From: Armatimonadota bacterium
GTDB lineage: Bacteria; Armatimonadota; Fimbriimonadia; Fimbriimonadales; Fimbriimonadaceae
Assembly: GCA_018268395.1 (NCBI GenBank)
Contig: JAFDWQ010000003.1
Location: 1-35,978, forward strand
DNA: 35,978 nucleotides
Direction: 5' to 3'
Both the position numbers and the translations under genes were made by a program. The notes beneath the pieces are model-generated. The model ran no database searches. It was given only the letters and a program-made list of their open reading frames with translations, and was not told where the DNA came from. Below, in pieces: positions 21,910 through 26,369 of the stretch (positions are counted from its first letter, which is position 1; each line of letters opens with the position of its first letter).

Positions 21910-22698
21910 ATGTCAACTAAAGGGATCTTCCGAACGGCAGTGACAGCGTTCCTGAGTGCTCCGCTCGTCGCTGTCGCCTGCCCGTTCTGCGGTCAAGTCC
22001 GGAACAGCATCGTCGGCGACGTCATGGACATGGGCAACGGTACCGTCCGGACTTGGGTGCGCCTCGATAAGGACAAGAAGCCCGAGGCGATCGGCATCAC
22101 GTTCACCGCGACGGCCCTGGAGGGGCTGCCGACGGAAAAGCCCGACAACGGCGAAGACGGCTATGAGTTCACGTTGAAGCTTCCCAAGGAGGCTTCGATG
22201 CTACCGTTCGACCATGTGGCCGTCGACTGGAACCCGAAGAGTCACATTCCTGCACCGATCTACACCGTCCCGCACTTCGATTTCCACTTTTACATGATCT
22301 CGCCGAAGGACCGGATGAAGATCACCGCGAAGGGCGAAGACCTCAAGAAGTGCCAGACGAAGCCGGACGCTGCTTACCTGCCGAAGGACTTCATGTACGC
22401 CCCGGAAAGCGAGATCGCCTTCATGGGATCGCACTGGGTCGACGTCAAGACGCCGGAGCTCCATGGCAGCCCCTTCACCCAGACCTTCATCTATGGGACG
22501 TACGACGGCAAAGTCGTCTTCATCGAGCCGATGGTCACGATGGAATACCTGAAGTCAAGTCCTGACGTGTCGATCGACTTGCCCCAGCCCGAAAAGTTCG
22601 CGTTCAAGGGCAAGGCCTTTCCGACCAAGTACCACATCGCCTTTGACAAGAAGCGACAAGAGTACATGATCGTGTTCAGCGGCTTTATCAAGCGCTGA
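21910..22698 (+). CDS. Exported TTHB210-like protein
   Basis: 262 residues. A signal peptide (MSTKGIFRTAVTAFLSAPLVAVA) ends directly before CPFCGQ, leaving a CxxC pair at the mature N-terminus; the Cys could also be a weak lipobox. The centre contains VDWNPKSHIPAPIY and VPHFDFHFYMI, the conserved block I associate with Thermus TTHB210-like (DUF5602) proteins; the His/Asp cluster could bind a metal. Function is not known. It precedes the octahaem cytochrome gene in the same direction, but a separate regulated promoter lies between them. It appears to be translated from a leaderless mRNA. Confidence 0.8.
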   Translation: MSTKGIFRTAVTAFLSAPLVAVACPFCGQVRNSIVGDVMDMGNGTVRTWVRLDKDKKPEAIGITFTATALEGLPTEKPDNGEDGYEFTLKLPKEASMLPFDHVAVDWNPKSHIPAPIYTVPHFDFHFYMISPKDRMKITAKGEDLKKCQTKPDAAYLPKDFMYAPESEIAFMGSHWVDVKTPELHGSPFTQTFIYGTYDGKVVFIEPMVTMEYLKSSPDVSIDLPQPEKFAFKGKAFPTKYHIAFDKKRQEYMIVFSGFIKR

Positions 22699-22746: not shown

Positions 22747-22778
22747 CGGAGCGGTATGACGGCCGTCATACCGCTCCG
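22747..22778. promoter_or_regulatory. Crp/Fnr-type operator (32-bp palindrome) of the octahaem cytochrome promoter
   Basis: A perfect 32-bp palindrome with the core TATGACGGCCGTCATA, centred at 22762.5. The half-site ATGAC-N4-GTCAT has the size and symmetry of Crp/Fnr-family sites and contains the TGA read by the E-x-x-x-R recognition helix. A TATGCT -10 hexamer lies at 22792-22797. If it spans -12 to -7, the +1 is 22804 and the palindrome is centred at exactly -41.5, the class II activator position. The probable regulator is the protein encoded at 25656-26369. Confidence 0.75.
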
Positions 22779-22791
22779 GTCGCGGAGACCG

Positions 22792-22797
22792 TATGCT
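22792..22797 (+). promoter_or_regulatory. -10 element of the octahaem cytochrome promoter
   Basis: TATGCT, placed 29.5 bp from the palindrome centre. It has no recognisable -35, as expected for an activator-dependent class II promoter. The leader would be about 24 nt and contain AAGGGA (22816-22821), 6 nt before the GTG start. Confidence 0.6.
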
Positions 22798-22827
22798 CCA
22801 AACGGCCTTCGTGCCAAGGGACTTAAG

Positions 22828-24150
22828 GTGAGAAACAGCTTTGCGGCCATCGTCGGCCTACTCGGCACCGTCCTTCTCTTCGCGGCCGGATCAGGCGTCG
22901 TTTCGACGCCGGTGAAAGCAGAAGCCAAGGCGGCGACCGCTTCCAACCATCGCAGTGCCGGACAGGACAGCGCGTGCGTCAAGTGTCACGAGAAGACGAC
23001 GCCAAAGATCGTCACGGACTGGAGGATCAGCAAGCATAGCGGCGTGCCCGTCGACTGCTCCGACTGTCACGGCAGCGAACACAAGACCGTTGCCGACGCC
23101 GCCAATGCCAAAATCCCGACTCCGCAGACGTGCGCCAAGTGCCATGGCGAGCAGGTCGAGCAGTTCATGGAGGGCAAGCATTCGAAGGCTTGGACCGTCA
23201 TGAAAGCCATGCCGACGACGCACTATCAGCCGATGATGCTCACGGAAGGCCTGAAGGGCTGCGGCGGATGCCACAAGATCGGGGTGAAGTCCGAAGCGGA
23301 CATTAAGGAGATGTCGAAGAGCGGGTCGACGATCTTCGGGCTCTCGAGTTGCGACAGTTGCCACACCCGGCACACGTTCTCGGTCAAGGAGGCCAAGCAG
23401 CCGCAGGCCTGCCAGACGTGCCATATGGGGTTCGACCATCCTCAGTGGGAGATGTACTCGGCGAGCAAGCACGGGGTCCGCAACGGCCTCAAACAGAACG
23501 GCCAGCTCCCAGAGGACACGGCCGCTCCGACCTGCCAGACCTGCCATATGGACGAAGGCCATCATGGCGTCAAAACCGCTTGGGGCTTCCTCGCCGTCCG
23601 GTTGCCGTTACCTGAAGACAAAGAGTGGGCGGCCGACCAAGTCACCATCCTGCAAGGCCTGGGCGTCCTCGATCCCACCGGAAAGCCGACGGCCCGTCTC
23701 GATGCCGTGAAGGCGGTCGACGCGGCTCGTCTCACCCAAGAAGAGTGGCAGGTCCAGCGGGACAAGATGATCCGCATCTGCTCGAAATGCCACTCGCAAA
23801 ACTTTGCGAAGGGCGAACTCGAGAAGGGCGACCGCATGATCCGGGAAGCGGACAAACTGATGGCGGAGGGCGTCAGAATCGTCGCGGGCCTGTACAATGA
23901 CGGGATCATTCCCAAGCCCGAAAACTACGCGGCCGCATTCCCAGACCTGCTCGCGTTCCACGACTCGCCGACACCGATCGAGCAGAAACTGTGGACGATG
24001 TTCCTCGAACACCGCATGCGGACGTTCCAGGGCACGTACCACGCGAACCCCGACTATGCGCTCTGGTACGGATGGAGCGCGATGAAGACGGACATCGTCG
24101 AGATCCGGGGGCTCGAAAAGGACATGCGGGAGAAGTCGAAGAAGGGCTAA
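22828..24150 (+). CDS. Octahaem c-type cytochrome of the hydroxylamine oxidoreductase (HAO) family
   Basis: 440 residues, exported (MRNSFAAIVGLLGTVLLFAAGSG). Eight CxxCH haem sites begin at residues 50, 77, 102, 145, 175, 195, 236 and 318. Family-like segments are WEMYSASKHG and the C-terminal TYHANPDYALWYGW (403-415). HAO-type enzymes either oxidise hydroxylamine or hydrazine, or run in reverse to reduce nitrite or hydroxylamine. The oxidative type has a Tyr cross-linked to the active haem; Tyr404, Tyr410 or Tyr414 may be at that place, but an alignment is needed. There is no C-terminal membrane helix. The start is GTG 22828, with AAGGGA 6 nt upstream; the longer open frame begins inside the operator palindrome. 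Neighbours nnrS and a Crp/Fnr regulator favour a role in nitrogen-oxide detoxification or respiration. Confidence 0.88.
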   Translation: MRNSFAAIVGLLGTVLLFAAGSGVVSTPVKAEAKAATASNHRSAGQDSACVKCHEKTTPKIVTDWRISKHSGVPVDCSDCHGSEHKTVADAANAKIPTPQTCAKCHGEQVEQFMEGKHSKAWTVMKAMPTTHYQPMMLTEGLKGCGGCHKIGVKSEADIKEMSKSGSTIFGLSSCDSCHTRHTFSVKEAKQPQACQTCHMGFDHPQWEMYSASKHGVRNGLKQNGQLPEDTAAPTCQTCHMDEGHHGVKTAWGFLAVRLPLPEDKEWAADQVTILQGLGVLDPTGKPTARLDAVKAVDAARLTQEEWQVQRDKMIRICSKCHSQNFAKGELEKGDRMIREADKLMAEGVRIVAGLYNDGIIPKPENYAAAFPDLLAFHDSPTPIEQKLWTMFLEHRMRTFQGTYHANPDYALWYGWSAMKTDIVEIRGLEKDMREKSKKG

Positions 24151-24169: not shown

Positions 24170-24183
24170 ATGACGGCGGTCAT
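24170..24183. promoter_or_regulatory. Crp/Fnr-type operator of nnrS
   Basis: ATGACGGCGGTCAT is the same ATGAC-N4-GTCAT site with one mismatched central pair, centred at 24176.5 and only 20 bp after the cytochrome gene stop. GATCAT at 24206-24211 lies 29.5 bp from the centre, identical to the spacing at 22792. The predicted +1 at -41.5 geometry is 24218, the A of the nnrS ATG. Confidence 0.7.
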
Positions 24184-24205
24184 GTCCCGTGGCCCGGCAG
24201 AAGTC

Positions 24206-24211
24206 GATCAT
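24206..24211 (+). promoter_or_regulatory. -10 element of a leaderless nnrS promoter
   Basis: GATCAT matches four of six consensus bases including A(-11) and T(-7), and ends 6 nt before ATG 24218. No -35 and no Shine-Dalgarno are present, in keeping with activator-dependent transcription of a leaderless mRNA. Confidence 0.5.
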
Positions 24212-24217
24212 GGGACT

Positions 24218-25648
24218 ATGGCCGCCAGTGGCGTTCCCCGTTTCTCACAGGCCAGTCGATGGGCGCAAAACGCCCGATCTGGGTCGTGCGCGAAGGTCGA
24301 GGTCTTCAGACCGTTCTTCGTCTGCGGTATCACGACGGTCCTCACCGCCGGGTGCCTGCTCGGAGCCCTCGCGCTGTACGGAATCTCGGTCCAAGGCACC
24401 TATCTGGCGAGCGCTTGGACGCCCTACGTCCTCGCCCATGCGAATTCCCAGCTCTACGGCTGGGTCGGGTTCTTCGTCATGGGCTTCTCGCTCCAACTGC
24501 ACGCACCTAGGGTCTCAAGGGAACGGTTGTTCCATCTCCTTGCATGGGCGACGCTCGGTCTGATGTCTCTCGGCGTCTTGCTCCGGTTTGTGGCCGAACC
24601 TCTAGCCCAGGAGGGAGCACCCCGGGCGGTCGCCCTTGGCGTCCTGTCCGGCTGGCTGCAGTTCGCAGCCGTCGGTTTGTTCCTGATCAACACTTCGGTC
24701 ACCCGGTACCGACCCCGTATCCAGGACGGTACGGCAAGCCTCGCACTCGTCCAGGGCGGCGAAACGCTCGGTCCGAAGAAGCCGATGACGTGGCCGACCC
24801 TTTTCGTCTTCTTCTCCCTCGGGTGCCTCTTGGCCGTTTCCGCGGCTGAACCCTTCGTGTTCGCCCTTTCCCACCAACCGGACAAGAGGGCATCTGTCCT
24901 CTTTGTCGCCGAGTGGTTCCCGCCGCTTCGTGAGACCCAGTTCCTCGGATTCGTCGCTTCGATGGTGTTCGGTGTCGGCCTGTCCCGGTTCCGTGAGGTC
25001 TTCGGAACCGTCGAAGCCCGCCAAGGGCCAGGATTGGCCGGCTTCGTCATGTGGACGGTCGGACTGGTCGCCCGAGACCTTGGATGGCTCAGCGCGTTCC
25101 GGAACGGGCTCCAGCCGGGATCGGGCGTGCTCTATGCGCTTGGCGGCACGTTGCTTTGCGTCGGAGCTCTGTTGGTCACCTACTCGGCGGGAGTCTTCGA
25201 CCCCTTCCGTGGCCCGTTGCGGACCCATAAGTTCTTGCGGGCCGCCTTTGGATGGCTGTTGGTCGCAGGATTCATGATGGTCGTGGAGCCCCTCTATCTT
25301 AAGGTCTTGGGGCAGCCGTTCTCCCACGCTTACACCGGCGCCGTGCGACATGCTGTTACGGTCGGCTTCCTTTCTCAGACCATCATCGCGTTCAGTTCCA
25401 CGATGGTGCCGAACATGGCCGGACTCGACCAGAGGAAACTGTCGCCCCTATGGCCGACGTTCGTCCTCCTGAACGTCGGTAACGCGGCGAGGGTCTTCCT
25501 CGAAGTCGGCACGGACTTCGGCCATTGGGCTTTCCGTCCGATGGGTTGGACCGGTTTCGTCGAATTGACCGGGCTCGTGCTTTGGGCCGTTCCCATGCTG
25601 TCCTTACTCGTCAAGTTCCGCTCCAAGGCGGTAGCCTTCGGAGTGTGA
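24218..25648 (+). CDS. nnrS: NnrS family haem-copper membrane protein
   Basis: About 476 residues, strongly hydrophobic, with roughly twelve membrane segments. The family hallmark is in helix 2 (HANSQLYGWVGFFVMGF, matching the NnrS H-x2-x-Q-x-x-GW...GF pattern), and further His residues occur late (SHAYTGAVRHAVTVGF). NnrS proteins of denitrifiers bind haem and copper and protect against nitric-oxide stress, for example by keeping iron-dinitrosyl complexes from forming; no enzymatic reaction is established. The start is taken at ATG 24218 because the predicted transcript begins there. An ATG at 24170 gives 16 more residues but lies within the operator. It is followed 7 nt later by the Crp/Fnr-family gene, so the two share a transcript. 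Confidence 0.88.
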   Translation: MAASGVPRFSQASRWAQNARSGSCAKVEVFRPFFVCGITTVLTAGCLLGALALYGISVQGTYLASAWTPYVLAHANSQLYGWVGFFVMGFSLQLHAPRVSRERLFHLLAWATLGLMSLGVLLRFVAEPLAQEGAPRAVALGVLSGWLQFAAVGLFLINTSVTRYRPRIQDGTASLALVQGGETLGPKKPMTWPTLFVFFSLGCLLAVSAAEPFVFALSHQPDKRASVLFVAEWFPPLRETQFLGFVASMVFGVGLSRFREVFGTVEARQGPGLAGFVMWTVGLVARDLGWLSAFRNGLQPGSGVLYALGGTLLCVGALLVTYSAGVFDPFRGPLRTHKFLRAAFGWLLVAGFMMVVEPLYLKVLGQPFSHAYTGAVRHAVTVGFLSQTIIAFSSTMVPNMAGLDQRKLSPLWPTFVLLNVGNAARVFLEVGTDFGHWAFRPMGWTGFVELTGLVLWAVPMLSLLVKFRSKAVAFGV

Positions 25649-25655
25649 GGTTTGA

Positions 25656-26369
25656 GTGAGCGGTCCGGCAGGTGCGCCGGACAAACCGTCGGTAATGGGC
25701 GTCGTGGCTTCTTGCTCGGCGCTCGACCCGTTATCGGACACAGAACGGGAGGCGCTGGCAAGAAGCTGCTTCATGTCCTACGCGGGCCGAGGCGAACTGA
25801 TCTGGCTCGCCGGATCCCCGATCCAGTTCGCGGCCGTGATCGGAAGCGGTTTCATCAAGATGACGAGGACGACGCCACAAGGGAACGAGGTCGCAGTCGA
25901 ACTTCTCGGACCGGGCCAATGCCTGGGCTTGATGGTGCTCCTCGAAGGACGGACGTATCCTTTGAACGCCGTCGCCGTCACCGACTGCTGGTACCTCAAG
26001 GTTCCCTCCCGGGCGTTCCTCGACCTCTATGATGCGAACCCCGGCCTCAGGGACACGATGTTCCGCTCGCTGGCGCCCCGGTTGCGGCGGGCGCACGAAA
26101 TGATGGCGCGCATGACGTCGGACAAAGTCGAACAGCGGGTTGCGGCGATCCTCTTGATCTTGCTCGACTCGTACGGCCGCGAATCGGACCGAGGCGTCAC
26201 GCTGACGGTACCGTTGACGCGTCAAGACCTCTCCGAGATGGCGGGAACGACGGTCGAATCGACGATCCGCGTCATGAGCCGTTGGCAGAAGGAGGGCGCC
26301 GTTACGACGGACAAGCAGTGGATCACGGTCTTGGACCTGGCGTCCCTTGAGTCGCTTCTGGCCGATTGA
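25656..26369 (+). CDS. Crp/Fnr-family transcriptional regulator
   Basis: 237 residues: an N-terminal cyclic-nucleotide-binding-type beta-roll, a dimerisation helix (RAHEMMARMTSDKVEQRVAAILLILL) and a C-terminal winged helix-turn-helix (LTRQDLSEMAGTTVESTIRVMSRWQKEG). The recognition helix has Glu201 and Arg205 in the E-x-x-x-R spacing by which Crp and Fnr read TGA/TCA. Fnr Ser212, which sets the outer base, is Ile204 here, consistent with ATGAC half-sites rather than TTGAT. The Fnr iron-sulphur cysteine pattern is absent (Cys are at 20, 38, 89 and 111), so it is more like Dnr/NnrR-type sensors of nitric oxide. The signal is inferred, not shown. Start is GTG 25656; Met14 is an alternative. It is co-transcribed with nnrS and hence probably autoregulated. 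Confidence 0.88.
   Translation: MSGPAGAPDKPSVMGVVASCSALDPLSDTEREALARSCFMSYAGRGELIWLAGSPIQFAAVIGSGFIKMTRTTPQGNEVAVELLGPGQCLGLMVLLEGRTYPLNAVAVTDCWYLKVPSRAFLDLYDANPGLRDTMFRSLAPRLRRAHEMMARMTSDKVEQRVAAILLILLDSYGRESDRGVTLTVPLTRQDLSEMAGTTVESTIRVMSRWQKEGAVTTDKQWITVLDLASLESLLAD

Follow-up and report, generated by a model that had tools for sequence, protein, structure and literature searches.

The window analysed here is a stretch of 35,978 nucleotides at the start of contig JAFDWQ010000003.1, from an Armatimonadota bacterium of the family Fimbriimonadaceae (order Fimbriimonadales). It holds a cluster of a multihaem cytochrome c gene, an nnrS-like gene and a gene for a CRP/FNR-family regulator. The features of the cluster are as follows, with op+n giving the distance in nucleotides from the first base of the operator concerned.

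22748-22777, + strand: 30-bp perfect palindrome (GGAGCGGTATGACGG/CCGTCATACCGCTCC) upstream of the multihaem cytochrome gene, holding an exact operator at 22756-22769
22792-22797, + strand: -10 element TATGCT of the cytochrome promoter, at op+36, with a predicted +1 at 22804
22828-24150, + strand: multihaem cytochrome c gene, with a proposed GTG start at op+72 and AAGGGA upstream
24170-24183, + strand: CRP/FNR-type operator ATGACGGCGGTCAT, a perfect 5-4-5 palindrome centred at 24176.5, predicted position -41.5
24170-24217, + strand: mechanical N-terminal extension MTAVMSRGPAEVDHGT of 16 codons, whose own ATGs are the operator; proposed not to be translated
24206-24211, + strand: -10-like hexamer GATCAT, at op+36 and at -12 to -7 of the ATG; class II activation needs no -35
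24218-24220, + strand: predicted +1 and leaderless ATG of nnrS; across the operator-bearing loci an in-frame start (ATG or GTG) falls at op+48 to op+51 in 34 of 38
24218-25648, + strand: nnrS-like gene, 476 aa from the proposed true start, a distant match to Pfam NnrS
25656-26369, + strand: CRP/FNR-family regulator (Pfam HTH_Crp_2 and cNMP_binding), second gene of the proposed operon

The first-pass annotation had called the second of the three genes nnrS, a name which is right in that Pfam NnrS (PF05940) was matched by 12 of 12 aligned homologues (best E-value 1.3e-8), but the relationship is distant and the window protein itself scores 17.6 bits, below the cut-off of 28. 'NnrS-like' is a fair name for what appears from its sequence to be a distant branch of the family. 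As in other NnrS proteins, there are a conserved H-A-N and further histidines, and the predicted model has about 12 helices. This model (mean pLDDT 77) resembles haem-copper oxidase subunit I and NO reductase, with TM scores of about 0.67 to cbb3 CcoN and 0.60 to cNOR and with conserved histidines; judged from it, NnrS may represent a divergent version of the haem-copper-oxidase fold. The gene probably has a role in nitric-oxide tolerance. Conservation begins at about residue 30 of the protein read from 24218 ('VFRPFF'), so the choice of start codon leaves the domain untouched.

The operator at 24170-24183 has no mismatches to ATGAC-N4-GTCAT. A scan of the window for this palindrome with up to two mismatches gave 23 matches (9.6 expected), of which two are exact, at 22756 (ATGACGGCCGTCAT) and at 24170; no window site of the FNR consensus TTGAY-N4-RTCAA was present among the matches listed. 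Adding 41.5 to the operator centre at 24176.5 gives 24218, the A of an ATG in frame with the reading frame opened at 24170; this placement of the predicted +1 had been claimed from the single sequence, and recomputed coordinates agree with it. The hexamer GATCAT, not mentioned in the first-pass annotation, is a weak -10 with the key -11A and -7T, and a -35 element is not apparent by eye at nnrS. The 3' end of the host 16S rRNA (GGATCACCTCCTT) carries a normal anti-Shine-Dalgarno (anti-SD) sequence, with which the 15 nt before the ATG pair at only -2.0 kcal/mol, bearing out the earlier statement that this start lacks a Shine-Dalgarno (SD) sequence. Possible starts in the frame are 24170, 24182 and 24218. 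The first two were rejected because their ATGs consist of operator bases, because the extension is closed in a sister species, and because SD pairing is weak (GGAAG before 24170, -3.3 kcal/mol).

For comparison, the regions 5' of 46 nnrS-like genes in the family and the order were collected, and an ATGAC-N4-GTCAT-type palindrome was found within 200 nt at 38 of them. An in-frame ATG or GTG lies at op+48 to op+51 in 34 of these 38 loci (14 at op+48 and 11 at op+49). Counted with one locus per genus, and bearing in mind that the related genomes are not independent samples, the start lies at op+48 to op+51 in 21 of 23 genera, whereas other 4-nt windows hold a mean of 1.4 and a maximum of 5. A geometry proposed from one sequence is thus kept in 21 of the 23 operator-bearing genera, together with a placed -10 and a weak or absent SD. 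No possible start earlier than the codon at op+48 to op+51 exists in 17 genes, whose frame is closed upstream. One of them is that of the sister species (G033), in which 48 nt separate the first base of the operator from the ATG; the frame closes 30 nt ahead of this ATG and leaves no alternative start upstream of it. As a matter of sequence comparison, the cross-genus series settles the start codon of nnrS far better than the single sequence does. At five loci (L033, L039, L041, L062 and L063) two palindromes lie upstream of nnrS, 35-83 bp apart, which suggests tandem activation.

The -10 element follows the same spacing. With one locus per genus, A occupies op+37 in 83% of cases and T occupies op+41 in 70%, corresponding to -11A and -7T if +1 is op+48. 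In an unconstrained scan the best -10 fell at op+36 or op+37 in 21 of 38 genes (shuffled sequences: mean 1.7, maximum 6), and in 26 of 37 genes it precedes the start codon by 12 or 13 nt. The median SD duplex is -1.8 kcal/mol at operator-linked starts versus -6.2 kcal/mol at the 12 other nnrS copies (p=0.0006), a contrast somewhat inflated by scoring those 12 copies by the best of all possible starts. GGAGG is frequent in nnrS copies without the spacing (L040, L043, L049), and a few operator-linked starts show modest pairing (L032, -6.3 kcal/mol; L055, -7.0 kcal/mol). These modest pairings count against leaderless starts, as does the presence of GTG at the operator-linked position in several relatives, 5'-terminal GUG being used poorly by E. 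coli ribosomes (PMC9031893). An accidental coincidence of an ATG and a class II start, although not very unlikely for a single gene at one given position, can be set aside as next to impossible given its recurrence in 21 of 23 genera.

The host genome comprises 3.7 Mb, and a baseline for start sites was drawn from a sample of 436 kb, made up of the window and twenty stretches of 20 kb. Among about 290 genes in this sample, TAnnnT peaks at exactly -12 from ATG or GTG starts, with 21 genes there; most other offsets have about 2-3. TANNNT at about -12 without an SD has been described as characteristic of leaderless genes in Actinobacteria and Deinococcus-Thermus (PMC3160421, PMC12340547). With a sharp peak of this kind, the host is, on start-site statistics, an organism in which leaderless initiation is widespread, and its geometry is matched exactly by nnrS.

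The computed operator, its spacing to the -10 and to the start codon, the missing SD, the order-wide conservation and the general leaderless usage are best read, with a probability of about 0.75, as a class-II-type activated, leaderless nnrS-CRP/FNR operon with its +1 at 24218. A CRP/FNR-family activator, most likely the product of 25656-26369, would bind 24170-24183 at the class II position -41.5, perhaps on a nitric-oxide or anoxia signal. The bound activator would replace the -35 element and recruit RNA polymerase to the weak -10 GATCAT, the transcript would begin at 24218, and the leaderless mRNA would be read from its 5'-terminal AUG. The regulator gene, which begins at 25656 directly after the end of nnrS at 25648, is probably on the same mRNA, so that a positive feedback loop would result.

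Of the competing accounts the closest is a transcript that begins 1-5 nt upstream of the ATG and carries a very short leader without an SD. The start codons of relatives are spread over op+48 to op+51, often at op+49 or op+50, where a leader of 1-3 nt may exist, whereas the -10 keeps to op+36 or op+37, as such an account would have it. Against it, TAnnnT in the host peaks sharply at -12, which is precisely the spacing of the window gene, and for nnrS in the window a short leader is unlikely.

A second account concerns the cytochrome promoter, where the exact operator at 22756 and TATGCT form a strong promoter-like unit with the same operator-to--10 geometry as nnrS. The 30-bp palindrome around this operator exceeds what a CRP/FNR site needs, and a TTHB210-like protein is encoded just upstream of the cytochrome, at 21910-22698 (Pfam PF18197, E-value 2.8e-18). 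On this account most nnrS expression would come from an mRNA that runs from the 22756 promoter through cytochrome, nnrS and regulator, with nnrS in a distal position; its translation would begin at 24170/24182 or at 24218 through coupling or reinitiation, and the operator at 24170 would be minor. It draws on the strength of that upstream unit, on the gap of only 19 bp between the cytochrome stop and the nnrS operator and on the weak GGAAG before 24170. The 24170 extension is not conserved, however, and the operator-to-start spacing persists where the neighbours are different or divergent; a search of the other loci revealed no relative of the cytochrome in the vicinity of nnrS. Genes upstream of nnrS differ among relatives, and in G033 and some others they are divergent, which calls for a promoter local to nnrS in those genomes. 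As the main source of nnrS expression, the upstream promoter is therefore improbable, more so than a short leader; some nnrS mRNA may nevertheless arise by read-through from 22756, given the short distance of 19 bp from the end of the cytochrome gene to the operator.

A third account would make the palindrome a repressor site, at which a CRP/FNR or other protein blocks an otherwise active promoter. The operator does overlap the expected place of the -35, and its location is by itself no proof that it activates. Sites for repressors can in general occur at varied positions. The nnrS promoter has no -35 apparent by eye and a weak -10, and the fixed operator-to--10 spacing across genera and at other targets is what a requirement for contact with RNA polymerase would give; repression is accordingly rated very improbable.

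Counting the window, 22 loci have a relative of the regulator next to nnrS, and the 25656-26369 product is, by its sequence and position, a probable candidate ligand of the operator; if it binds there, it would be autoregulated. The arrangement shares a CRP/FNR-family protein, a 5-4-5 palindrome and an nnrS target with the DNR, NnrR and HcpR regulons as described in the available part of PMC1274295. The half-site ATGAC is unlike the consensus of all three, given in the same part of that source as TTGAT (DNR), TTGcg (NnrR) and TTGAC or CRP-like (HcpR), and leaderlessness of the targets forms no part of the account there.

Across 85 family genomes, operator-N34-37-ATG occurs in 56 and operator-N42-45-ATG in 33. 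The first arrangement gives 91 distinct sites outside nnrS, 39 of which carry a -10 at op+36 or op+37. Among 29 sites with the second arrangement, 10 likewise show a -10 at op+36, here with a longer leader. The spacing of 36-37 between operator and -10 is shared by the nnrS relatives and these other targets, and places the operator at -41.5 relative to the predicted +1. Further activated leaderless genes beyond nnrS are likely, to judge from these site counts. One locus of the host genome (L017, G000:C9:251022-251074) has an exact operator with an ATG at op+50 behind GCATAAT and opens a long ORF, which by eye alone resembles a molybdopterin oxidoreductase; it is a second candidate leaderless target. 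In two relatives' loci (L103 and L105) operator-N34-37-ATG precedes long transporter-like ORFs of 489 and 494 aa. Leaderlessness throughout the regulon was considered for the host genome and rejected, several exact operators having their likely start at op+72 to op+85, with leaders of about 24-37 nt. Exact operators within permease genes (in the region coding for GGIDLSVG) were discounted as coding coincidences. The cytochrome gene of the window has its -10 in the same position as nnrS and yet a 24-nt leader, so leaderlessness is a gene-specific property.

The first-pass annotation had regarded a class II activator driving a leaderless mRNA as seldom described, which overstates the case. In phage lambda, OR2 lies at position -42. 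The lambda cI gene, CI-activated at OR2 and transcribed from PRM as a leaderless mRNA, is a textbook precedent, and in both lambda PRM-cI and the prophage pair PRM933P-paaR2 an activator binds near the -35, the mRNA starts at the AUG and the activator gene is on that mRNA (PMC8630535, PMC4488713). CI, however, is a phage repressor and activator, whereas nnrS has a CRP/FNR-type operator, a cellular regulon of the nitric-oxide/denitrification type and a regulator as the probable second gene. Leaderless genes of Actinobacteria and Deinococcus-Thermus resemble nnrS in a -10 that abuts the start codon and in lacking an SD (PMC3160421, PMC12340547); the surveys treat the -10 motif, whereas nnrS has an activator site at a fixed distance in place of the -35. 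C. glutamicum bca/RamA was dropped as a published case of an activator-driven leaderless gene, because RamA represses bca. A limited literature search found no relevant report on leaderless genes in Armatimonadota. This type of arrangement is already known; the present case contributes a cellular CRP/FNR-type example, strict order-wide conservation and a phylum for which that search gave no earlier report.

For gene annotation, the finding corrects starts to which mechanical annotation adds 16 residues that are operator and promoter. It also makes available a series of over 30 naturally occurring genes with a fixed spacing of operator, -10 and start codon, for which the leadered cytochrome gene under the same operator offers a paired control within one cluster, and it ties the activation of transcription to the mode of translation initiation. 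Taken further, and tentatively at best, the nitrogen-oxide response genes of the Fimbriimonadales as a whole set might use CRP/FNR-activated leaderless mRNAs, in which case activation would also select a translation mode (5'-AUG, 70S-type) suited to nitric-oxide or anoxic stress.
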